IMG/VR virus record: IMGVR_UViG_3300034158_000002
Coordinates: 1 to 36,858 of that record
DNA: 36,858 bases
Strand: one strand, 5' to 3'
Source: a virus
Part shown: piece by piece, positions 1-29,689 of the stretch
Numbering within the stretch: the stretch's first letter is position 1
How the letters are laid out: each line of letters opens with the position of its first letter
Notes under the pieces: generated by a model
What the model was told of the DNA's origin: nothing
The model's input: the letters and a program-made list of their open reading frames with translations, nothing else
The model's database searches: none
Made by a program: the position numbers and the translations under genes

Positions 1-264
1 CTGGAGGAACTGCACGCACTCGTAACTAAGTCGTACTCGACTCGTATTACTCAGGACTTGGCTGACGACATCCCTACGGATGCTGCCACCTTGTCCGGTG
101 CTGCGAAGTTCCTCAAGGACAACGCGATTACTGCCGATCCGGCAGACAAGGCCGACCTCAAGGGTCTGCAAGCTCAGCTCAAGGCCGCCGCCGAAGAACG
201 CTCTAAGCGGGCTGGTAAGGTACTAGAGCTGGTTAAGAATGACGAGAAGGAGGCACTTGGCTAA
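1..264 (+). CDS. terS: Terminase small subunit, C-terminal part (5' end outside window)
   Basis: The frame is open from base 1 and stops at 262-264, giving the last 87 residues of a gene that begins before the window. A TTG at 58 is an internal codon rather than a likely start. The visible part is helical and charged, rich in K, E and A, ending in an amphipathic helix that fits the TerL-contacting tail of a DNA-recognition subunit. The identity rests mainly on position: its stop shares one base with the start of the large terminase, the usual terS-terL arrangement in T7-like phages. No DNA-binding motif is visible because the N-terminus is missing. Confidence 0.75.
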   Translation: MEELHALVTKSYSTRITQDLADDIPTDAATLSGAAKFLKDNAITADPADKADLKGLQAQLKAAAEERSKRAGKVLELVKNDEKEALG

Positions 265-2066
265 TGGAACAAGCACTTAGATTCGCACATGCTGAGGCAG
301 TAGCGGAGAACTACCTAAACTTTGTAGACTTCGCAGTGGACGGCATGTCGTTTCTAGGCTTCCCACTAACCAAGATGCAAGCAGACATTGCAGAGTACAT
401 GCAGTATGGTGCTCGATTACGCATGGTGATGGCCCAGCGAGGGGAGGCTAAGTCCACCCTTGCAGCCCTCTATGCAGTGTGGCGCATAATCCAACGCCCT
501 ACGACTCGGGTATTGATCGTATCCGCAGGCGAAGTACAGGCGTCGGAAGTTGCGACACTGATCGTACGTATCATCACTACATGGGACATTCTGGAGTATC
601 TGCGCCCAGACAGACAAGCAGGGGACCGCTCAAGCATCTCCGCGTTCGACGTGCATTATACGCTCAAGGGTATCGACAAATCACCGTCGGTAGCCTGTGT
701 CGGGATTACGGCTAACCTCCCCGGTAAACGGGCAGACTTGCTGATCCCGGACGACATCGAATCTCCGAAGAACGCTATGACTTCGACCGAAAGGAACAAG
801 CTCAAGCATCTCTCTAAAGAGTTCTCGTCGATCTGTACGCACGGCGACATCTTGTACTTGGGCACGCCTCAGACTAAGGATAGCATCTATAACTCCCTAC
901 CGGGTCGAGGCTTCCAAGTCCGCATCTGGCCGGGACGATTCCCAACGCCAGAAGAGGTAGAGAAGTATGGAAGCCGACTGGCACCGTTCCTTGCGGAGCG
1001 CATTCAAGCCGACCCGTCCCTGCAAACAGGAGGCGGCATCGACGGAACCAGAGGCCAGCCCTCTGACCCACATCGCTACACCGAAGACGACCTCATCGAG
1101 AAAGAACTGGACAAAGGCCCTGAGGACTTTAGTCTCCAGCACATGCTCGACACCAGCCTCTCCGACGAAGCCCGCCAACAGCTGAAGCTCAGTGACCTCA
1201 TGGTCGCTAACTTCGACTACGAGTCGGTGCCTGAGATCCTCCCGTACCGTGCAGACCCGAAGTACCTAGCGCCTCTGGCTCTGGACTTCCCTGTGGCCAT
1301 GACGAGCATGTACCACCCTGTGTCAGTTGAGTGTGCCTTCGTGGCGCCCCTGCTGCGCATGATGTACATAGACCCGGCTGGCGGTGGCGCGGATGAGATG
1401 GGGTACGGCATCAGTACTGCGGTAGGCTCTTACATCCACTCGCTTGACGTGGGTGGTATTAAGGGTGGGCTCACTGAGGCGAACGGCATCAAGCTGTGCG
1501 CCCTAATGAAGAAGTACACAGTCACCATCGTGCAGGTAGAGAGCAACATGGGCCACGGCCTGTTTGAGATCAACCTGCGCGCTATGCTAGACAAGCTCAA
1601 GCTCGGCTTCGTATCTGAGACAGGCGACCACTACCCTGCTGATCCTTGGTACGGTTGTGTGGGCGTCATTGGCGAGTACAGCACAGGGCAGAAAGAGAAG
1701 CGCATCATTGACTCCGTAGTGAGTGCCATGCAACGCCACCGGGTGATCCTGCACAAGCAGGTGTTCCTGTCTGACGTCGAGTACGGTAAGCAGCACGGCG
1801 CCGATAAGCGCAACAACTACTCCCTGTTCCAGCAGATTAGCGCAATCACCACCGACAGGAACTCTCTGGCGCATGACGACCGGATTGAAGCTTGGGCTGG
1901 CAGTGTACGCTACTGGAAGGCTGTGCTAGCTGTGGATGAACACAAGGCAGCAGAGAAGCGGCGTGAGCAAGATGCTCGCACGTTCATGGACAACCCAATG
2001 GGCTACGAGGACGCACCTAAGCGCCTCAAAGGAACCCGGAACAGCATTCAACGACGGAGACGTTAG
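264..2066 (+). CDS. terL: Terminase large subunit (packaging ATPase and nuclease)
   Basis: 600 residues, close to T7 gp19 (586). It powers DNA translocation into the prohead and cuts the concatemer. The Walker A motif is QRGEAKST at about 58-65 and the Walker B is LLIPDDIE at about 158-165. The RNase H-like nuclease domain follows, with its first acidic residue in YIDPAGGG near 370, a second in VQVESN near 425 and a DDR near 534. The start ATG shares one base with the terS stop (TAATG), so translation is coupled. The C-terminus is strongly basic and ends in RRRR. The phage family is clear; the exact catalytic residues are assigned by pattern only. Confidence 0.97.
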   Translation: MEQALRFAHAEAVAENYLNFVDFAVDGMSFLGFPLTKMQADIAEYMQYGARLRMVMAQRGEAKSTLAALYAVWRIIQRPTTRVLIVSAGEVQASEVATLIVRIITTWDILEYLRPDRQAGDRSSISAFDVHYTLKGIDKSPSVACVGITANLPGKRADLLIPDDIESPKNAMTSTERNKLKHLSKEFSSICTHGDILYLGTPQTKDSIYNSLPGRGFQVRIWPGRFPTPEEVEKYGSRLAPFLAERIQADPSLQTGGGIDGTRGQPSDPHRYTEDDLIEKELDKGPEDFSLQHMLDTSLSDEARQQLKLSDLMVANFDYESVPEILPYRADPKYLAPLALDFPVAMTSMYHPVSVECAFVAPLLRMMYIDPAGGGADEMGYGISTAVGSYIHSLDVGGIKGGLTEANGIKLCALMKKYTVTIVQVESNMGHGLFEINLRAMLDKLKLGFVSETGDHYPADPWYGCVGVIGEYSTGQKEKRIIDSVVSAMQRHRVILHKQVFLSDVEYGKQHGADKRNNYSLFQQISAITTDRNSLAHDDRIEAWAGSVRYWKAVLAVDEHKAAEKRREQDARTFMDNPMGYEDAPKRLKGTRNSIQRRRR

Positions 2067-2067
2067 T

Positions 2068-2295
2068 ATGAGCCTTATGCAGCACGTGGCGGAAGACGCC
2101 GGGACTATCGGCAACAGCTCCGCCTCTGCTGCGGTAGCAGGCGTGAGCTTGGCGGGCATTGGTCTGCCTGACTGGGTAGCACTCATCTCGGGTGTGTACT
2201 TCATCATCTCGACTGTGTTCCTAGTAATGAAAGTCGCCGCTTGGCGCAAGGACAGAAATGCTAAAGCAAAGACTATTGGCGATGGGGCTGACTAG
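2068..2295 (+). CDS. Holin, probably a pinholin
   Basis: 75 residues. An Ala/Gly/Ser-rich weakly hydrophobic segment (about 19-33) is followed by a strongly hydrophobic one (about 35-56) and a basic tail (WRKDRNAKAK). This two-segment pattern with a mild first segment resembles class II holins and pinholins, which depolarise the inner membrane at lysis time. The neighbouring endolysin carries a SAR anchor, and SAR endolysins are typically paired with pinholins, as in phiKMV. ATG 2068 has GGAG about 10 bases upstream; a second in-frame ATG at 2077 could give a shorter form, as in dual-start holins. It begins one base after the terL stop and overlaps the endolysin by 38 bases. Confidence 0.85.
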   Translation: MSLMQHVAEDAGTIGNSSASAAVAGVSLAGIGLPDWVALISGVYFIISTVFLVMKVAAWRKDRNAKAKTIGDGAD

Positions 2296-2755
2296 CGCTC
2301 TCGCTGCCGGTGCCTCGTACGTCGCGCTGAAGGAGGGTGTCTCGTACACCCCGTACCTTGATGGTGGTGGTGTGCGAACGTGGTGCTACGGCCAGACCGT
2401 GGGCACTGCGAAGGCCCGCTACACCGTGCAGAAGTGCGACAGAGACCTCGTTCAGATGTATCTGGAGTACCACAAGGCCATTGAGCTGTACGTGCCTGAG
2501 AGCGCCCCTGCAAGCGTTCACGCTGCCTTCACATCCCTCGCCATCAACACCGGCAAGAGTGGTTGGGTTAACACCCGGTTCACCGTGCCTCTGGGCAAGC
2601 GGGACTGGCTGGCTGCGTGTAACGCGATTGAGGCGCCATGGAAGGGCAAGCTAGGCGTTGCCAAGGGTTACAAGGCAACGATCCAAGGGAAGCCCAGCAA
2701 GGGCCTTGAGAACCGTCGCCGCGATGATGCGGCATACTGTCGGAGTGGCTTATGA
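2258..2755 (+). CDS. SAR endolysin, GH24 (T4-type) lysozyme
   Basis: 165 residues. It cleaves the glycan strand of peptidoglycan. Residues 5-24 form a weakly hydrophobic, Ala/Gly/Ser-rich N-terminal segment without a clear signal peptidase site, typical of a signal-arrest-release anchor that holds the enzyme inactive in the membrane until depolarisation. The catalytic triad follows the T4 lysozyme spacing E-x8-D-x5-T: E26, D35, T41. Cysteines at 43 and further along could form the disulfides that regulate some SAR enzymes. The gene begins inside the holin gene in another frame, with AAGGA at 2248-2252 as ribosome site, and its stop overlaps the Rz start as ATGA. Confidence 0.93.
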   Translation: MLKQRLLAMGLTSALAAGASYVALKEGVSYTPYLDGGGVRTWCYGQTVGTAKARYTVQKCDRDLVQMYLEYHKAIELYVPESAPASVHAAFTSLAINTGKSGWVNTRFTVPLGKRDWLAACNAIEAPWKGKLGVAKGYKATIQGKPSKGLENRRRDDAAYCRSGL

Positions 2756-3066
2756 TCTGGCTTAAAGCAATGGTGCCGCTGTGGCTGCTCCTGATCGTCG
2801 CTGTGCTTGGTGTAGGTGGCACGGCTTACGCTGGGTACGCTTACACCACCACTGTGCGTGAGCAGCGCGACGTGGCCCTTGACGCTCTATATAAAGCCGA
2901 CGAGAAGACCCGGCGCATCCAGAAGCAGGTGCAGACAGCTGTGGCCTCCGCTAATGCTGCGAAAGCACAACTGAAGGGGGTGCTCGATGCGAGCCCTGAA
3001 GTTCGCGATGCTGCTACTCCTGAGCCTGTCCGTGTCAGCCTGTGCGCAACGCTCCGCTGTAAATGA
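2752..3066 (+). CDS. Rz: i-spanin (Rz-like, inner membrane)
   Basis: 104 residues. One transmembrane helix lies at about 8-30 (PLWLLLIVAVLGVGG), followed by a charged, Ala-rich periplasmic region (about 33-80) likely to form a coiled coil. This is the standard layout of the inner-membrane spanin that fuses inner and outer membranes in the last step of lysis. Its start overlaps the endolysin stop (ATGA). The o-spanin gene begins within it in the +2 frame, the classical nested Rz/Rz1 arrangement. The C-terminus has two cysteines (LCATLRCK), which may link i-spanin dimers. Confidence 0.88.
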   Translation: MIWLKAMVPLWLLLIVAVLGVGGTAYAGYAYTTTVREQRDVALDALYKADEKTRRIQKQVQTAVASANAAKAQLKGVLDASPEVRDAATPEPVRVSLCATLRCK

Positions 3067-3196
3067 CCCCGTAGCATGCGTTCATCCTTTGATCGATGCA
3101 GGCACGTACGGTGGGCTCACTCAGGGCCTACTGGATTACCACGCAGCGCTTGAGCTGTGCAACTCACTTAATGGAGTATCGCCAAATGGCAATTGA
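2987..3196 (+). CDS. Rz1: o-spanin lipoprotein (Rz1-like)
   Basis: 69 residues. A short basic N-terminus and hydrophobic stretch lead to a lipobox, LSVSAC, with the lipidated cysteine at residue 19. The mature protein would be an outer-membrane lipoprotein of about 51 residues that partners the i-spanin. The mature part contains two further cysteines and a TYGGL motif, reminiscent of the TYGDL found in many Rz1 proteins. Its first 80 bases lie inside the Rz gene in another frame; the rest extends beyond it. AAGGGGG at 2974-2980 is the ribosome site. It overlaps the next gene by 11 bases. Confidence 0.87.
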   Translation: MRALKFAMLLLLSLSVSACAQRSAVNDPVACVHPLIDAGTYGGLTQGLLDYHAALELCNSLNGVSPNGN

Positions 3197-3503
3197 ATCC
3201 CAAACCCCGGCTGTGCAACTCGACCTGCGCCAGAAGTGTGCCATCGCCTCCAAGGCTTTGCAGACCTTCGCCCAAGACGCCAGTGCCCGCACCGCAGCTC
3301 AGGCTGTGAGTATCGACGCTGCTCTTGTAGCGCTCCAGACTGCCCTCGTGGCCGCTGGTGCTGTACCTGTACTGCCGAGCACGCAGAAGACCCTGACCAG
3401 CGCTGTGAAGACTCCTGTCGGCACCGTGAGTGGCTCTGGCACCTTCGGCACTCCTACTATTGTCGGTGGTGTGATTACCGGCATCGTCCTGAGCGCTAGC
3501 TAA
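3186..3503 (+). CDS. Unknown protein with helical N-half and beta/glycine-rich C-half
   Basis: 105 residues from ATG 3186, chosen because GGAG at 3173-3176 is well placed; ATG 3171 in the same frame would add five residues. I do not recognise a family. Residues about 15-60 are Ala-rich helix, containing IDAALVALQTAL. The tail, about 75-105, is a Gly/Thr/Val-rich run (GTVSGSGTFGTPTIVGGV) that looks like beta structure of a surface or fibre protein. The helical part resembles the protein at 3743-3934, where the matching stretch is IDANLAALKVAL, so the two may be paralogues flanking the Acb2-like gene. Its stop shares a base with the next start (TAATG). A virion decoration role is possible but unproven. 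Confidence 0.75.
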   Translation: MAIESQTPAVQLDLRQKCAIASKALQTFAQDASARTAAQAVSIDAALVALQTALVAAGAVPVLPSTQKTLTSAVKTPVGTVSGSGTFGTPTIVGGVITGIVLSAS

Positions 3504-3739
3504 TGGCTAACCAACACCGCAAGATCGCTACGTACCGTGAGCTTAGCCAAGACGAGATCGACAGCATTAACTCTGTGAAGCTGATCGAGATCCGACTGGC
3601 AGCGCTATGGGACTCCCTTAGCGATGTACCGGGTGTGGACCGCCGCGACCTAGCGCTGGCCCGTGCCCACTTCGAAGATGGCTGCATCCGTGCAGTCAGG
3701 GCAGTTGCCCGACCTACCTCTCCATTCAATAAGGAATAA
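3503..3739 (+). CDS. acb2: Acb2-like anti-CBASS cyclic oligonucleotide sponge
   Basis: 78 residues. The N-terminal pattern HRKIATYRELSQDEID, followed by IN-x2-K, then VD-R at 45-47 and the C-terminal RAVARPTSPF, matches my memory of Acb2 (phage PaMx33) and T4 Vs.4, small helical proteins that assemble as hexamers and sequester cGAMP-type cyclic dinucleotides and cyclic trinucleotides. These are the alarm signals of CBASS defence. Tyr11 and Lys26 fall at the positions I recall as cGAMP contacts in PaMx33 Acb2, and Arg66 is near the trinucleotide-site arginine. The gene is coupled to its upstream neighbour by TAATG and ends three bases before the next gene. Its place behind the lysis genes suggests late expression. 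Recognition is from memory, without a database search. Confidence 0.82.
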   Translation: MANQHRKIATYRELSQDEIDSINSVKLIEIRLAALWDSLSDVPGVDRRDLALARAHFEDGCIRAVRAVARPTSPFNKE

Positions 3740-3742
3740 CCC

Positions 3743-3934
3743 ATGGCTTCTATCACTACCTCTACCGTCGCTGAAGTAGCTGCACTGCTTGACGCAACCC
3801 GTAAGGCTGCACTGGACATCCAGAAGCTAGGCCAAGGTAAGTACACCATCGCTGAGATCGGTGTAGCCCGTGCCGCTGAGATTGATGCTAACCTTGCTGC
3901 ACTGAAGGTAGCACTGGATGCTGTCGTAGCTTAA
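3743..3934 (+). CDS. Small Ala-rich helical protein, unknown
   Basis: 63 residues, start ATG 3743 preceded by AAGGAATAA. It is almost entirely predicted helix, rich in Ala, Leu, Ile and Asp, with no cysteine and no membrane segment. Its C-half (VARAAEIDANLAALKVAL) matches 10 of 18 residues of the stretch AAQAVSIDAALVALQTAL in the protein at 3186-3503, suggesting a duplication on either side of the Acb2-like gene. No function can be assigned. It could be an accessory of the neighbouring gene or a minor virion protein. Confidence 0.7.
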   Translation: MASITTSTVAEVAALLDATRKAALDIQKLGQGKYTIAEIGVARAAEIDANLAALKVALDAVVA

Positions 3935-4176: not shown

Positions 4177-4522
4177 GAGTGATCCGGCTGGTTCTATGAG
4201 CACCTAAAAGTTATTTAGATTCGCGAGGGCCTTCCCGACCCGACTGCGGCCCCCACTGCCCCCATGCCTTCCTCTGCGGAGTGAACTGATGCACGATGGG
4301 TGGGGTGGGGTCATCCCTTGGCATCAGCCTAGCTAACCTCTGAACCTCAGTGATCTAGCCAGTGATTGCATTACATCACACTGGAATCCAATGCGTCAAC
4401 ACCTAATCACTACCTCAGTGCTAAGCATGGTGAGTAGTGGAGCACGTAGTGCGAGACTGCGAGCCTAGCGCCTACCATCAGCAGCATTCATGGTGGATTG
4501 CGCAGGGAGGTAGAGAGGGAGG

Positions 4523-4781: not shown

Positions 4782-4886
4782 ATATTCCATACCATGCCTC
4801 AGGCTCTTCCCTCGGATCGGGACTCGGTATCGCTCTGCTCTACCATGTTATCCGGCTTCATTACTAAAACCCTTGTTTTGGTCACA

Positions 4887-5105: not shown

Positions 5106-5133
5106 TTGACACTAGCCACTGACTCTGTAGAAT
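5106..5133 (+). promoter_or_regulatory. Early host sigma70 promoter 1
   Basis: The -35 box is TTGACA (5106-5111, perfect) and the -10 box is TAGAAT (5128-5133), with a 16-bp spacer. It is the first of four tandem promoters that would recruit host RNA polymerase to the early genes, like T7 A1-A3. Confidence 0.8.
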
Positions 5134-5222
5134 CGGCACCATGTTCAACGGCACAGGTTACTAGCCCTAGGGGCGGCCAGTGTAGGTAAGCGGGAAGGTC
5201 GAAAGGCTCAAAGCTTACTAGG

Positions 5223-5252
5223 TTGACAGGCAGCACAGCAACACGGTAGGAT
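5223..5252 (+). promoter_or_regulatory. Early host sigma70 promoter 2
   Basis: TTGACA (5223-5228) and TAGGAT (5247-5252) with an 18-bp spacer. Confidence 0.8.
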
Positions 5253-5303
5253 GCAACGGCAACAAGTAGTGACGCAGTAGCCAACCAGCGAAAGCAACAA
5301 GGG

Positions 5304-5332
5304 TTGACAGACTGGCAGACACTAGGTAAGAT
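5304..5332 (+). promoter_or_regulatory. Early host sigma70 promoter 3
   Basis: TTGACA (5304-5309) and TAAGAT (5327-5332) with the ideal 17-bp spacer. Probably the strongest of the four by consensus. Confidence 0.85.
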
Positions 5333-5396
5333 GCGAACCACTACCTGAGCAGATGAATGAGTAGGGTGGTAGCGAGGTAGGGCCAACCTACTGAGC

Positions 5397-5425
5397 TTGA
5401 CAGGACGCAACACTAGCTGTAGAGT
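5397..5425 (+). promoter_or_regulatory. Early host sigma70 promoter 4
   Basis: TTGACA (5397-5402) and TAGAGT (5420-5425) with a 17-bp spacer. Initiation would fall near 5432, directly before an ATG at 5433 that opens a 16-codon frame; that frame lacks a leader and is probably not translated efficiently. Confidence 0.8.
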
Positions 5426-5504: not shown

Positions 5505-5699
5505 GTGGCGCTAGTGAAGACTGCAAAGGGACAAGGCAAGGCGATAGTAGCAGACGCTACTGGAGGCCGGGGTCGATCTACGACAAGCGCCCGAAGGCTA
5601 CGAGCCCAAAGACTTAAAGCGTCGTTGTTCCGCAAGCGAGTGGCAGAGTGCGGAGTTCCACCTAGGGTCCAGAATACGCCACGAAGTGACGTTACCTAG
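5505..5699 (+). CDS. Possible small basic early protein (uncertain)
   Basis: A GTG-start frame gives 64 residues, very basic (many K and R) with no recognised domain, placed directly after the four early promoters where T7-like phages carry small host-takeover proteins. A competing frame, ATG 5495 to stop 5617 (40 residues, MRKGGASEDCKGTRQGDSSR onward), overlaps it. Neither has a convincing ribosome site, so at most one is likely real and the stretch may be untranslated leader. Confidence 0.3.
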   Translation: MALVKTAKGQGKAIVADATGGRGRSTTSARRLRAQRLKASLFRKRVAECGVPPRVQNTPRSDVT

Positions 5700-5786
5700 G
5701 CGGGTATGTAGGTCAAGCGTTTACAGAGCACGTCGAGCTACCTAATAAGGCACTCCCACGACTCTCAGCCACCTACCACCTGAAGT

Positions 5787-5929
5787 CCTCAACTGAGGCA
5801 AAGACTAATGATGGTCTGCTTAGCTAAGGCGAGACGGCAGACCAGAGTAGTTTCGAGAGCGGCGCTAGCCTGCTACCAACTGCACCAGAGATGGATGCGA
5901 CGTGGGTTAGGCTGCTCTCGAAACTACTC
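5787..5929 (+). ncRNA. Candidate structured RNA: three consecutive hairpins
   Basis: A small hairpin (CCTC/GAGG, 5787-5798) is followed by an 8-bp perfect stem TGGTCTGC/GCAGACCA (5812-5819 with 5837-5844). Directly adjacent, with no base between, is a 16-bp perfect stem: GAGTAGTTTCGAGAGC (5845-5860) with its complement (5914-5929), whose 53-base interior has a further AGCCT/AGGCT pairing (5867-5871, 5909-5913). No ORF with a ribosome site fits. It lies in the early leader upstream of the gene at 5954. It could be a noncoding RNA, an RNase III processing site, or a DNA inverted repeat bound by protein. Confidence 0.5.
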
Positions 5930-5953
5930 ACCAACTGACAGTAAGGCTGTAGA

Positions 5954-6241
5954 ATGGCACGTAAGCAAGGCGTTACCGCATGGCCTGACGGCGCTGATCC
6001 ACTCACACCAGCAGAGCGTGCTCTGAAGCGTGAGCAAGGGCAGGCAAAGATCGCAGCCATGAAGAAGGATGCAGGAAGGCACAAGGATATTGCACGGCGG
6101 GAACGTAAGGTCGCCAAGCTGAACACCATGGGTCCAGATGCAACGTACGAGAAGAAGCGGATGCGGGTCGAGAATTACGGCGGGCAGAAGCCTACCGCTG
6201 GCCTATCCTTTAGCCCGAATGGGCACAATGCTGCGAGGTGA
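5954..6241 (+). CDS. Early basic protein, unknown
   Basis: 95 residues, rich in K, R and A, with a helical basic middle (AERALKREQGQAKIAAMKKD, about 20-39) and a Gly/Pro/Asn-rich tail. No family recognised. AAGG at 5943-5946 precedes the ATG. It is the first clearly translated gene downstream of the early promoters and the structured leader. Basic early proteins in such phages often bind nucleic acid or host polymerase, but nothing in the sequence proves this. Confidence 0.7.
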   Translation: MARKQGVTAWPDGADPLTPAERALKREQGQAKIAAMKKDAGRHKDIARRERKVAKLNTMGPDATYEKKRMRVENYGGQKPTAGLSFSPNGHNAAR

Positions 6242-6243
6242 GT

Positions 6244-6408
6244 ATGAACCATCGTAACTGGACACCGGGCCGTAAGGCCATTGCTCAAATGTTCACCTAC
6301 GCCGAGCGTTTCATTGGCTGGGGTGCACTGGGCGACAAGCGTGGGATGCGTCAAGGCTTGGCTACCAAGACGAAGGCGTTAATTTACATGGACCGGGCGG
6401 AGGGCTGA
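6244..6408 (+). CDS. Small basic early protein, unknown
   Basis: 54 residues beginning MNHRNWTPGRKAIAQMFTYA, ending in YMDRAEG. It starts two bases after the preceding stop, with GAGGTGAGT upstream, and its stop is one base from the next ATG, so it sits in a tight translational string. Basic and aromatic, no signal or membrane segment. No known family. Confidence 0.65.
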   Translation: MNHRNWTPGRKAIAQMFTYAERFIGWGALGDKRGMRQGLATKTKALIYMDRAEG

Positions 6409-6409
6409 C

Positions 6410-6685
6410 ATGCAAGCCATTACGATCACTTACAAAGGGCCTACAGCCACTAGAGGCTCACGCTGGGTAGCTAAGTGCTCCGCAGGGGCCGTTACTGTGC
6501 CTTACGACCACGAACTCGACTCTGAAGGTAACGCCAGAGCAGCCGCATTGGCTTTGCTGGTCAAGCTTGGCTGGACGTTCGAGGCAGGTTACAAAGGCCA
6601 CTGGACGCTCGGCGGGTTATGGCAGGGGCCGTACGTCGCCGTGTACTCAGGTACCGCGTTAGATACCCATTTCCGTGCTCCATAG
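6410..6685 (+). CDS. Conserved small phage protein, function unknown
   Basis: 91 residues. The opening ITITYKGPTATRGSRWVAKC and the later VPYDHELDSEGNARAAALAL resemble a small protein recurrent in many phages and prophages, with a beta-rich N-half and a helix followed by LGW. No catalytic motif is evident. It is coupled to its upstream neighbour (one-base gap) and is followed by a hairpin element repeated at 7475. Confidence 0.75.
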   Translation: MQAITITYKGPTATRGSRWVAKCSAGAVTVPYDHELDSEGNARAAALALLVKLGWTFEAGYKGHWTLGGLWQGPYVAVYSGTALDTHFRAP

Positions 6686-8508: not shown

Positions 8509-8856
8509 ATGAAACTGCATGAGATCCTAGGGCGTATCCTCACGGACTTCGATCTGCGCCAAGCGCACAAGAACGTCGGTGTGTGCGAGTTGGTAGGTAT
8601 ACTGGCCGAGGCCGACCTACCGCCACCCGACCGGGCCTTGACAGCATGGTTCGATGAGGCGCTGTACAGCTGCACCCAGACAGATACGTGGGTGTACCCG
8701 GTCCGTGGGCCGAGCGGAGCATCCCGTGACGACGCCAAAGGTGACTACCGCGACGTGTACCACGGCACCAAGAACTTCTGGCGCGGTGAGTACGGTGTGA
8801 ACCGCCGTAAGCTAGTCCGGGACTGCTGGCGCTGGGCTAAGGAACGGGACGTATGA
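8509..8856 (+). CDS. Unknown early protein
   Basis: 115 residues, preceded by the near-perfect ribosome site AAGGAGG at 8499-8505. N-half helical (LHEILGRILTDFDLRQAHKN); C-half Trp- and Arg-rich (TKNFWRGEYGVNRRKLVRDC). No family recognised. Its stop overlaps the start of the oxygenase gene (ATGA), so the two are probably made in step. Confidence 0.7.
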   Translation: MKLHEILGRILTDFDLRQAHKNVGVCELVGILAEADLPPPDRALTAWFDEALYSCTQTDTWVYPVRGPSGASRDDAKGDYRDVYHGTKNFWRGEYGVNRRKLVRDCWRWAKERDV

Positions 8857-9557
8857 CCGAGCTAACCAGCATCATGCTTGAGCACGCCGACACGGCCATT
8901 CCAAGCATTGATAAGCTGCACCCATCACTACGAGCCGCGTATCCTGCTATCTCAGCAGCAGCGAGCTTAGCGGAGCTTCTAGGCAGTGCTGACCTAGTTG
9001 ACGGGCCTAACATTCGCTGGGTCCGGGAACTCGTGACCGACTATGGTGGCGGTGTGTTCAGCTTCCCGTACCTTGCACCGTGGTACTGTGAACGCCTCGT
9101 GCAAGAGCTGAGCGGCGCAGGGTACGACGTTAACCCCGAAGAGCCACCAGAGGCACGCATCCCAGAGATCGTGCTCAGGCTGCGCTCCAAGCCCTTGCAC
9201 GACGCTTTGCATGTGCTCTGGGAGCAGACGTGTATCCCGCTGGCTAAGCTACTGTGGAACCTTGAGCCGGTGTCCTGCGGGACGATTCAAGCTGCGCAGT
9301 ACACACCAAGGGGCATCGCCGGGACTGCCATGCACCACGACCAAGACAGCGATGTCACTCTGGTTGTGAACCTTGGCACTGAGTTCGAAGGCGGCGGTAC
9401 GGAGGTAGCTGCTGGCCTGCTGGATGGCGCACGGATCACTGTTCCACCTCTACCTATCGGCCATGCCATGTTCTTCCTTGGCCGCACCCGGCTACACCGT
9501 GGACTGCCTGTAACTGAAGGCGTCCGCACACTACTTGTACACTGGTCCACCATTTAA
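8853..9557 (+). CDS. 2-oxoglutarate/Fe(II)-dependent oxygenase
   Basis: 234 residues. The C-terminal half has the double-stranded beta-helix signature of this superfamily. HHD at 161-163 supplies the HxD iron ligands (H161, D163), a distal histidine is H215 in RLHRG, and R225 (GVRTLLVHW) is placed to bind 2-oxoglutarate. GGGTEV between them fits prolyl-4-hydroxylase-like members. The enzyme would hydroxylate a protein, nucleic acid or small molecule; the substrate cannot be read from sequence. The first 60 residues are helical and have no clear counterpart. It is coupled by ATGA to the unknown gene upstream and followed by a TTG-start gene. Confidence 0.88.
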   Translation: MTELTSIMLEHADTAIPSIDKLHPSLRAAYPAISAAASLAELLGSADLVDGPNIRWVRELVTDYGGGVFSFPYLAPWYCERLVQELSGAGYDVNPEEPPEARIPEIVLRLRSKPLHDALHVLWEQTCIPLAKLLWNLEPVSCGTIQAAQYTPRGIAGTAMHHDQDSDVTLVVNLGTEFEGGGTEVAAGLLDGARITVPPLPIGHAMFFLGRTRLHRGLPVTEGVRTLLVHWSTI

Positions 9558-11200: not shown

Positions 11201-11234
11201 AAAACCCACGGTGGAATGCCCTGCCGTGGGTTTT
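11201..11234. terminator. Bidirectional intrinsic terminator
   Basis: AAAACCCACGG (11201-11211) pairs perfectly with CCGTGGGTTTT (11224-11234) around a 12-base loop. The A-run and T-run at the ends make it readable in either direction. It separates the small early genes from the HNH gene and replication block, and probably attenuates rather than stops early transcription. Confidence 0.7.
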
Positions 11235-11258
11235 GCTGCTCACTATCTTGGAGGGCCT

Positions 11259-11687
11259 ATGGCCTGTGTACTAAGCACGAACATCATAAACGAGGACGGC
11301 TACGGTCGCACCTTGTTTGAAGGTAAGTATGTACGGGCACACCGCCTTGCGTACGCTGAAGCCAATGGCCTCGACGTGCTAACAATGGGTGGCACTGTGC
11401 TGCACACATGCGATACACCGGCTTGCATAAACCCAGACCATCTGGTTATGGGTACACAGCAGGACAACATGGCCGACAAGGTAGCTAAAGGTCGGCAAGC
11501 CAAGGGCACTGGGCTACCACAAGCCAAGTTAACTGAGGCTATAGTGTTGGATTGCCGGGCACGCTACGTTGACCGCTGTAAGGTGAACGGGAACCGTGCC
11601 TTGGCTAAAGAGTTCGGAGTGGGCTCGGCAGTGATGTCGAGGGCAGTCCGAGGCGTAACATGGCAGCACCTAAATCCTGCTCAATAA
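11259..11687 (+). CDS. HNH homing endonuclease (HNH_3 type)
   Basis: 142 residues from ATG 11259 (GGAGG at 11250-11254). The HNH_3 core is VLHTCDTPACINPDHLVMGT, followed by QQDNM, with H, N and H in the expected places, then a C-terminal helix-turn-helix-like unit (ALAKEFGVGSAVMSRAVRG) for DNA recognition. Freestanding nucleases of this type are mobile genes that spread by cutting related phages. It sits directly after a terminator, a typical insertion spot that spares its neighbours. A second member of the family is at 21082. Confidence 0.88.
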   Translation: MACVLSTNIINEDGYGRTLFEGKYVRAHRLAYAEANGLDVLTMGGTVLHTCDTPACINPDHLVMGTQQDNMADKVAKGRQAKGTGLPQAKLTEAIVLDCRARYVDRCKVNGNRALAKEFGVGSAVMSRAVRGVTWQHLNPAQ

Positions 11688-24032: not shown

Positions 24033-26491
24033 TGACTGACTGCCGTGAAGCGCAACTGAAGTATGAGATGGAACAGGACGCCGTGGCTAGTGCCGAGCGC
24101 CTTGAGAAGCTGAAGGCTTCTGCGCTTGACGGCGATGTCAACCTACCAAAAGCCAGCCGGTTCATCGGTCGAGCGTACGCTGCGGTTAAAGAGTCGATGC
24201 AGGAAGCGCAACTGGTGCCAAGGCGAGGCCCCGGTGCGAAGTTCGGGAAGTGGCTTAAGGCCCTAGACCTAGACGTAGCGGCTGTACTAGCAATCAGGGA
24301 GTGCATCACGCACCTGACAGGGCACAAGGTCAGGACCAAACCGGTGACCATCCAGCTACTGGCGGGTGCTATCGGGCGCCTGTTCGAGCTGGAGATCCGC
24401 ATCAAGGAAGCCCAGACCGTTAACCCTGTGTACATGCAGAAGATCCACGATCAGGTGAAGGAGCGCCGAACCACCTCGAAGCATCACTTGGCCGGGGTGT
24501 ACGGGAATGCCTACGAGCAGGTTATGAAGGACTTCGCTGACTCGAAGCTCTCTGCCACTGAGGTAGTGCAGCTCGGTAAGTTCGGGGTACAGGCTTGCAT
24601 GGACGCAGGGCTTGTGGTTCACATCAAGACCTTCGGCTCGAAGGGCAAGATGTACTACTATGAGATGGCCCCTGAAGTAACCGAGTTCCTACACAGCTAC
24701 GGGAACAAGGACGTGGCAGGCGTGATGGACAACTGCGCAGGAACCATGAGCTGCCCACCAGACCCGTGGACGAGTTTGCTGGGCGGCGGGTACCTATCCC
24801 ACCGGCGGAAGCAGCACGCCCCGCTGATGAGCTTACACGGGATCAGGAAGTCGGAGCGGCCCCGCCTCCGCGAAGAGTTCACAATCGAGAAGATGCCGAT
24901 GGTGTTCGAGTTCGCGAACTACCTTCAGGCGATCCCGCTGGAACTGCACATGCCCACCCTGAACCGCATCAAAGGGCTCTGGCAGCTCGGTGGCGGCGAT
25001 ATGGGAATCCCTACAAGGTTCCCACCCCCAAAGCCTGTGTGCCCGCTCCCAGAGACGTGGAGCAGGACTACCGGGACAGATCAGGAGGTCGAGGTATTCA
25101 TCGCATGGAAGCGAAAGGCGGCTGCGTGGTACGACGAGAAGCGGGACTGGTCGAGCAAGGTGCGTGAGATCGGTGGCTTCATCAAGGCCGCCAGCAAGCC
25201 GCAGGGGCCGCTCTGGCTCCCAGTCTTCTGTGACACACGGGGACGGTGGTACTACCGCTCCAGCCCGAACCCACAGGGCTCTGACTTGAGCAAGGCGTGC
25301 TTGCACTTCCACAACAAGAAGCCGCTCGGGAAACGGGGCCTGTACTGGCTCAAGGTGGCCGTGGCGAACTCCTTCGGCTACGACAAGGAACGGTTCGATA
25401 AGCGGGCCGAGTGGACCGACGAGAACTGGCACATCATTCAGAGGGCTCTAGCTGAGCCTGAGAACAACGCAGAGACATTTGGGAAGGACTCACCATGGGT
25501 AATGTACAGCGCCGCATACTGCTTATCACAGGCGCTTGCGTCGGGGAGCCCGGAGACATACGAGACTGGATTGCCAGTTCACATGGACGCTACCTGCTCG
25601 GGACTCCAGCACTTCAGTGCGATGCTTCGCGACCCGACGGGTGGCCGGTACGTGAACTTAACCGACGAGAGCTTCGTTGGGCCAAAGCAGGACATCTACA
25701 GCCGAGTCGCTACCAATACCGTAGCTGCCATTAAGCGTGATCTGGAGTCAGCTGACGAGGCGATCAGGCTGTACGCTGCCATCTGGCTGAGCGTGGAGCT
25801 GCCTCGGGATCTGGCCAAGACTCCAGTTATGACGTACGTGTACGGTGCAACACTGCGCGGAACATCTGAGTTCGTGCAGGTATTTGCAGAGAAACAATGG
25901 GGAACAGCCCTGTTCCCAGAAGGCGTATCGGCGTACCGGGCGAGCATGTACCTCGCTAAGAAGCTGTTCCAAGGAATCGGCGCTACAGTGCCAGCCTCTG
26001 AAGCAGCGATGCACTGGCTCCGGCAGGTTGCCCGCCAGATGCCGAACGGTAAGCGCATGGAGTGGACCACCCCGACTGGCTTCCGCGTCCAGCATGACTA
26101 CCAAGGCTTCGACGAGATAAACGTGTACCTTCGTTCCTGCGGGACGAGGGAGGCTTTAGTGCGGGAGTTCAACGACAGCACTAACCCTATGGCCATGCAG
26201 AACGCCATCGCCCCGAACTTCGTGCACGCTCTCGATGCCTCCCACCTAACAATGGTTGGGTTGGAGATGATGCGCTTAGGGTATGACATCCTCGCCATCC
26301 ACGACTCCTTCGGAACACACCCAAGCGACGTAGACGAGATGCACCGGGTTATCCGGGAGCAATTCGTTAAGCTGTACTCGAATGATGTACTAGCAGATTT
26401 CCTGTGGGAAGTGGGCGCTGAGGGTGAGGTTCCCATGAAAGGGCGTCTGGATTTGAACGAGATCCTGACCTCTGAATTCTTCTTCTGTTAG
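24032..26491 (+). CDS. Phage single-subunit DNA-directed RNA polymerase
   Basis: 819 residues, slightly shorter than T7 gp1 (883). It transcribes the structural and lysis genes. The upstream palm segment FCDTRGRWYYRSSPNPQG is followed by motif A, VHMDATCSGLQHFSAMLRD (catalytic D519). Motif B is DLAKTPVMTYVYG, with the catalytic Lys and Tyr, and motif C AIHDSFGTHP (catalytic D758). The protein ends in FFFC, keeping the aromatic foot (FAFA in T7) needed at the active site. Its position at the end of the replication genes and directly before the structural block is the phiKMV-like layout. Its stop codon overlaps the first base of a likely target promoter. Confidence 0.97.
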   Translation: MTDCREAQLKYEMEQDAVASAERLEKLKASALDGDVNLPKASRFIGRAYAAVKESMQEAQLVPRRGPGAKFGKWLKALDLDVAAVLAIRECITHLTGHKVRTKPVTIQLLAGAIGRLFELEIRIKEAQTVNPVYMQKIHDQVKERRTTSKHHLAGVYGNAYEQVMKDFADSKLSATEVVQLGKFGVQACMDAGLVVHIKTFGSKGKMYYYEMAPEVTEFLHSYGNKDVAGVMDNCAGTMSCPPDPWTSLLGGGYLSHRRKQHAPLMSLHGIRKSERPRLREEFTIEKMPMVFEFANYLQAIPLELHMPTLNRIKGLWQLGGGDMGIPTRFPPPKPVCPLPETWSRTTGTDQEVEVFIAWKRKAAAWYDEKRDWSSKVREIGGFIKAASKPQGPLWLPVFCDTRGRWYYRSSPNPQGSDLSKACLHFHNKKPLGKRGLYWLKVAVANSFGYDKERFDKRAEWTDENWHIIQRALAEPENNAETFGKDSPWVMYSAAYCLSQALASGSPETYETGLPVHMDATCSGLQHFSAMLRDPTGGRYVNLTDESFVGPKQDIYSRVATNTVAAIKRDLESADEAIRLYAAIWLSVELPRDLAKTPVMTYVYGATLRGTSEFVQVFAEKQWGTALFPEGVSAYRASMYLAKKLFQGIGATVPASEAAMHWLRQVARQMPNGKRMEWTTPTGFRVQHDYQGFDEINVYLRSCGTREALVREFNDSTNPMAMQNAIAPNFVHALDASHLTMVGLEMMRLGYDILAIHDSFGTHPSDVDEMHRVIREQFVKLYSNDVLADFLWEVGAEGEVPMKGRLDLNEILTSEFFFC

Positions 26492-26507
26492 AAGCCGGAT
26501 ATAATGG
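26491..26507 (+). promoter_or_regulatory. Probable phage RNA polymerase promoter A
   Basis: GAAGCCGGATATAATGG, identical to the copy at 29673 and one base different from that at 26605. The TATAAT core is not paired with a sigma70 -35 box at proper distance. All three copies lie outside genes and upstream of structural genes, as expected for promoters of the phage enzyme. Confidence 0.68.
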
Positions 26508-26604: not shown

Positions 26605-26621
26605 GAAGCCGGGTATAATGG
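26605..26621 (+). promoter_or_regulatory. Probable phage RNA polymerase promoter B
   Basis: GAAGCCGGGTATAATGG; differs from the other two copies by G for A at position 9. It is preceded by CTT, as the copy at 29673 is by TTT, and followed by TACATC. It would drive the portal and scaffold genes. Confidence 0.68.
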
Positions 26622-29672: not shown

Positions 29673-29689
29673 GAAGCCGGATATAATGG
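29673..29689 (+). promoter_or_regulatory. Probable phage RNA polymerase promoter C (capsid)
   Basis: GAAGCCGGATATAATGG, identical over 17 bases to the copy at 26491, followed by TAGAGGAAAC. It lies in the gap between scaffold and capsid genes, where a strong dedicated promoter for the most abundant virion protein is expected. Confidence 0.75.

Follow-up and report, generated by a model that had tools for sequence, protein, structure and literature searches.

A virus record of 36,858 nucleotides (IMG/VR IMGVR_UViG_3300034158_000002; the whole stretch is called the window here) contains, shortly after its lysis genes, a frame of 78 codons that the initial annotation took for an anti-CBASS sponge of the Acb2 type. 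Others have shown that Acb2 withholds CBASS cyclic nucleotides (PMC10097602; reviews PMC12043709, PMC10419184). We asked whether the product of this frame, designated acb2 below, belongs to that family, how it is embedded in the phage genome and whether anything sets it apart from a plain Acb2.

Genomic setting and candidate expression signals of acb2

Among named phages, the nearest to the record are Strit and MR5, which are Pseudomonas phages of the Autographiviridae, subfamily Krylovirinae, and MKPT02 and Drael01, which are unclassified. Judged by its sequence, the source phage is a Krylovirinae-like member of the T7 supergroup, and since its nearest named phages infect Pseudomonas, its host would be a Pseudomonas-type bacterium. 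The record is a fragment; compared with Strit, the remaining internal-virion and tail-fibre genes are missing. Because both ends of the Strit genome align beside 4233/4234, the record was apparently assembled across joined genome ends, and acb2, which ends about 0.5 kb before this junction, would lie near the right genome end. The gene order is terminase, holin, endolysin, Rz/Rz1, 105-aa gene, acb2 and 63-aa gene. The initial annotation had placed acb2 behind the spanins in the terminase-lysis stretch; this holds, except that the 105-aa gene (3186-3503) stands between Rz1 and acb2. The features of the region and the candidate promoters are as follows.

264..2066, + strand: large terminase subunit
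2068..3196, + strand: lysis genes (holin, endolysin, Rz/Rz1-like spanins)
3186..3503, + strand: upstream 105-aa gene (phrog_9732, function unassigned), bordering the empty site of Strit and Draal03 on its left
3503..3739, + strand: acb2, 78-aa stand-alone Acb2/Vs.4 protein of the short-hairpin form, putative cyclic-oligonucleotide sponge (family and fold matches)
3743..3934, + strand: downstream 63-aa gene, bordering the empty site of Strit, Drael01 and Draal03 on its right
4233..4234, no strand: point at which the right and left ends of the genome are inferred to join
5106..5425, + strand: four sigma-70-like sites in a row, before the early genes and across the junction from acb2
26491..26507, + strand: putative promoter for the phage RNA polymerase, sequence GAAGCCGGATATAATGG, at the end of the polymerase gene
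26605..26621 and 29673..29689, + strand: further copies of the GAAGCCGGATATAATGG motif

The acb2 frame runs from ATG to TAA and encodes the 78-aa product MANQHRKIATYRELSQDEIDSINSVKLIEIRLAALWDSLSDVPGVDRRDLALARAHFEDGCIRAVRAVARPTSPFNKE. Its ATG shares bases with the stop codon of the preceding 105-aa gene (TAATG), an overlap also present at the acb2 start of a sibling phage (L005), and with the start so placed, translation of acb2 is probably coupled to that of the upstream gene. Late production of acb2 had been proposed from its location, and this received indirect support. The GAAGCCGGATATAATGG motif or a one-base variant of it occurs at 26491, 26605 and 29673, where none would be expected by chance; these sites are probable phage promoters, located where the phage RNA polymerase gene ends and between the genes for scaffold and capsid. 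Since acb2 lies downstream of them, its position and the gene order would fit late transcription. The sigma-70-like sites, which by number are a weak signal alone (4 found vs 3.0 expected in shuffles), all have a perfect TTGACA and are probably early host-polymerase promoters.

Three other elements were noticed. A leftward copy of the phage promoter-like motif, GAAGCCGGATAACATGGTAGAG, with 2 mismatches lies at 4838-4859 (- strand), near the left genome end. It points toward the genome end and in concatemers would oppose acb2 and the lysis genes in antisense direction; the site is kept in L005 (2 mismatches), MKPT02 (4) and Drael01 (5), and 1 of 500 region shuffles reached 5 mismatches or fewer. 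The early region also contains a 2OG-Fe(II) oxygenase-like gene (8853-9557; phrog_61, 3e-25), the Strit early region having a hydroxylase-named gene, and, ahead of the replication genes, an HNH homing-endonuclease-like gene (11211-11687).

Family membership and predicted fold

The acb2 product matched the Pfam profile Acb2_Tad1_hairpin (PF24729) with E 1.4e-15 and 57.7 bits, twice the curated cut-off of 27, and the match spans residues 10-70 and the whole model (profile positions 1-58 of 58). PF24729 also matches PaMx33 Acb2, T4 Vs.4 and the homologues of MKPT02 and HHBS14_1. The product matched PHROG_717 as well (6.9e-13), and PHROG 717 has been named as the group of Vs.4 homologues (PMC10097602). 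A phmmer search of the PDB retrieved p26, the Acb2 of phage PaP2 (E 1.7e-7), which is identical to PaMx33 Acb2 over the first 41 residues, and a profile built from 28 sequences retrieved 8h2j (Acb2) at 2.3e-25 and 7uq2 (T4 Vs.4) at 1.3e-9. In profile comparisons, hhalign gave 99.8% for PaMx33 Acb2 and 97.7% for T4 Vs.4. PADLOC models gave no match to the product, as that library covers defence systems, not sponges.

The sequence features on which the Acb2 assignment had been based, the motif HRxIxxYRELSxxEID, Tyr11 and Lys26, are all exactly present in the product. RAVARPT, described as the end of the protein, is also exact but is not terminal: SPFNKE comes after it. The assignment was right in substance, the Pfam, profile and fold matches all being to Acb2/Vs.4. 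Relatives of the product were present in 250 phage records; in a scan of IMG/VR, the single protein as query found 1 relative only and an alignment as query found hundreds. Between relatives, dN/dS is 0.03-0.23, which indicates purifying selection in the acb2 family; for pairs with the window acb2, synonymous sites are near saturation. A tree of 26 short sequences is weak around the window protein, with support of 82/97 for the group of nine phage proteins that includes it, and no conclusion is based on it. The acb2 ORF is real, far beyond chance, and by all sequence comparisons its product is a new Acb2 of an already known family, an ordinary member apart from Ala55 (see below).

The AlphaFold2 model, computed from the window protein aligned with its IMG/VR relatives, consists of two long helices (pLDDT 87.9, pTM 0.70):

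3548..3622, + strand: predicted helix 1, residues 16-40
3641..3709, + strand: predicted helix 2, residues 47-69

A structure search had been named as the check on the Acb2 identity, and the sole confident PDB matches were Acb2 and Vs.4. In Foldseek, ranks 1-9 were all of these proteins (8h2j, 8h2x, 7uq2), with probability 1.00 and TM to query of 0.64-0.75, and the next best was the unrelated Rop hairpin (probability 0.54). The E-values of the Acb2/Vs.4 matches were only about 1e-3, since a short helical hairpin of 78 residues yields little more.

The window protein is free of the hairpin-turn insert of T4 Vs.4 and PaMx33 Acb2. It is in this turn that the extra residues of T4 Vs.4 (88 aa), PaMx33 Acb2 (93 aa) and JBD67 gp34 (108 aa) lie. 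The insert-free form (about 72-82 aa) is widespread and dominates the IMG/VR and prophage matches; in the Acb2 literature that we examined, no assay of the insert-free short form (74-78 aa) was found, and searching the literature for Acb2 in combination with Autographiviridae found nothing. Among the closest known proteins, PaMx33/PaP2 Acb2 (p26; PDB 8h2j, 8h2x, 8ixz) is 41% identical to the window protein, has the same fold (TM to query about 0.73) and shares the N-terminal motif NQHxKIxxYRxLSQxEID, Tyr11, Leu14 and Lys26 under the same numbers, and the Arg and Ala of the RAVA/RAIA end. It differs in having about 19 more residues in the hairpin turn and Thr74 where the window protein has Ala55, and its gene follows replication-type genes, whereas the window acb2 follows lysis genes. 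T4 Vs.4 (PDB 7uq2) is 26% identical with a longer hairpin turn, and its likeness lies in the fold, the Y8/K23/R79 contacts and the small residues of the hexamer interface. JBD67 gp34 has the same N-terminal motif and is encoded in a late structural operon right after the major head protein, but is set apart by a long hairpin insert. Also close are the short-hairpin homologues of other Pseudomonas phages, both T7-like and temperate (MKPT02, MR5, pphageBV72, HHBS14_1, prophages of P. putida, P. viridiflava and others), which have 74-78 aa and 43-67% identity, are often encoded near lysis or right-end genes and, unlike the window protein, nearly all have Thr55. Several of these have been missed or given other names: in MKPT02 (L002) the gene was missed and ORFs were called on the other strand (5649-6002 and 6260-6541), in MR5 (gp57) and BV72 (pphageBV72_58) it is misnamed a NAD/FAD-utilizing enzyme, in vB_Pae_U2 an Rz-like spanin, and elsewhere short-hairpin homologues are labelled hypothetical.

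Since the Pfam family covers the hairpins of Acb2 and Tad1 alike, the frame might encode just the hairpin of a Tad1-like protein that acts on Thoeris gcADPR. This we regard as very improbable. The N-terminal beta-sheet domain of Tad1 is absent, for the ORF begins just 10 residues ahead of the hairpin, overlapping the upstream stop, and the prediction is all-helical; the neighbours in sequence and fold are Acb2 and Vs.4 only. A Tad1 hairpin identity was rejected on the missing beta domain, and Tad2 on the lack of any PF11195 match in the whole record. The ORF could also be a decayed, non-functional remnant, or the real gene could lie on the opposite strand, as the ORFs annotated antisense around the MKPT02 acb2 would have it; in the window too, an antisense ORF (3849-3496) is open. 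There is hardly any room for this reading: the + frame stays open throughout the homologues while the other frames do not consistently do so, and both the low dN/dS and the family matches concern the + frame, on which grounds we rejected the antisense gene model.

Accessory and mosaic state of acb2

Two properties of the locus were absent from the initial annotation, namely that acb2 is accessory and mosaic, and that a near-invariant Thr, at position 55, is Ala here. A search of the entire records of Strit, Drael01 and Draal03 with PF24729 gave no match. The 105-aa and 63-aa genes are direct neighbours in Strit and Draal03, with no acb2 between them, and Drael01 has another gene at this place, immediately followed by the 63-aa gene; in MR5 and BV72, acb2 lies elsewhere within the same post-lysis stretch. 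acb2 is an accessory gene, absent from three relatives.

Where acb2 is present, its allele can differ sharply between close relatives. The sibling L005 is 99.7% identical in the terminase and 98.4% in the 63-aa gene, and only 62.5% in acb2. At the DNA level, identity to L005 is about 40-70% over the first two thirds of the gene and rises to about 90% in roughly the last 80 bases. Such a divergent 5' part joined to a near-matching 3' end suggests that the acb2 allele was probably exchanged between siblings, with a breakpoint inside the gene. The 105-aa gene (3186-3503) is mosaic against L005 too, with 55-85% identity inside and more than 90% at its 3' end. In one phage, represented by two IMG/VR contigs (L061:720 and L067:3127, 99.7% identical), acb2 is interrupted within the hairpin turn by a TAA as codon 43; this is a natural null allele. 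PaMx41 reportedly also has a natural acb2 null allele.

Predicted ligand contacts and the substitution at position 55

In Vs.4, the stacking contacts are Y8 and F82, the polar contacts Y8, H11, K23 and R79, S74 is near the ligand, T12 caps a helix, and the hexamer interface comprises L29, F33, A66, A73 and A77 (PMC10097602). We located the equivalent positions in an alignment of 142 distinct relatives, from which conservation was counted.

3533..3535, + strand: codon for Tyr11, equivalent to Vs.4 Y8 (base stacking/H-bond with cGAMP); Tyr in 142 of 142 relatives
3578..3580, + strand: codon for Lys26, equivalent to Vs.4 K23; Lys in 141 of 142
3665..3667, + strand: codon for Ala55 (GCC), near-invariant Thr site (Vs.4 T68, PaMx33 T74) in the alignment of relatives
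3698..3700, + strand: codon for Arg66, equivalent to Vs.4 R79; Arg in 135 of 139

The cyclic-dinucleotide contact set, Tyr (Y8/Y11), Lys (K23/K26) and Arg (R79/R85), is present in the window protein. Tyr11 and Lys26 had been pointed out as cGAMP contacts, and they do align with the published Vs.4 Y8 and K23 (PMC10097602), as does Arg66 with R79. Arg48 and Leu14 are nearly invariant among the 142 relatives. Other Vs.4 positions are changed: H11 is Leu14, T12 is Ser15, S74 is Cys61 and the stacking F82 is Ala69, which is Ala in 135 of 139 relatives. Leu14 and Ala69 are also the residues of PaMx33 Acb2 and the rule outside T4-type proteins; Phe82 is a trait of the T4 branch, not a family-defining one, and the PaP2 protein, near-identical to PaMx33 Acb2, was solved with cGAMP. 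The interface residues L29/F33/A66/A73/A77 correspond to Leu32, Trp36, Ala53, Gly60 and Ala64.

It is very likely that acb2 encodes a short-hairpin Acb2 acting as a hexameric sponge of CBASS cyclic nucleotides. The two-helix protein would assemble into a hexamer, with cyclic dinucleotides held at its dimer interfaces and cyclic trinucleotides perhaps at separate sites. Once the CBASS cyclase of an infected host makes its signal, the sponge would bind and withhold it, so that the suicide effector would be kept off and the phage could finish. The gene would be transcribed late by the phage RNA polymerase, together with the packaging and lysis genes.

The one feature that could set the window protein apart from such a plain Acb2 is Ala55. 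The site is Thr in 134 of 140 relatives, Ala in 3 (the window, L025 and L129) and Ser in one; this helix 2 Thr, T68 in Vs.4, is a conserved trait and not a published family criterion. In the T4-like phage Bas35, the change T68M at the same position is reported to lower T4 Acb2 binding, in a figure that covers T4-like phages naturally resisting Panoptes (PMC12657230, Extended Data Fig. 7e), and T68M is described as one natural loss-of-function change in Panoptes-resistant phages (PMC12657230). Ala55 is an unusual substitution that may alter what the window Acb2 binds. Together with the exchange of most of the gene relative to L005, it might tune the protein to favour certain CBASS signals and avoid others, the decoy nucleotide of Panoptes for example, with a changed ligand choice or a lowered affinity. 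We consider this unlikely: replacing Thr by Ala is a small step, milder than replacing it by Met, the two relatives with Ala and the one with Ser are intact in the rest of the protein, and every named cGAMP contact common to PaMx33 is kept. A further conjecture, which we hold less probable still, is that Ala55 and the swapped 5' part reflect selection between CBASS, which favours binding, and Panoptes-type decoys, which punish it, and that the result would be a narrowed-ligand sponge, not a plain broad one.

The short-hairpin Acb2 described here adds a compact, right-end, putatively late-operon Acb2 to the Pseudomonas phages of the T7 supergroup, in which the gene has gone unannotated or carries a wrong name. 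Its pattern of presence and absence and the allele swap provide natural pairs of related phages for CBASS and Panoptes tests, and the Ala55 variant singles out a residue whose role in ligand choice is measurable. What deserves a bench test in this acb2 is its accessory, mosaic nature and its Ala55.
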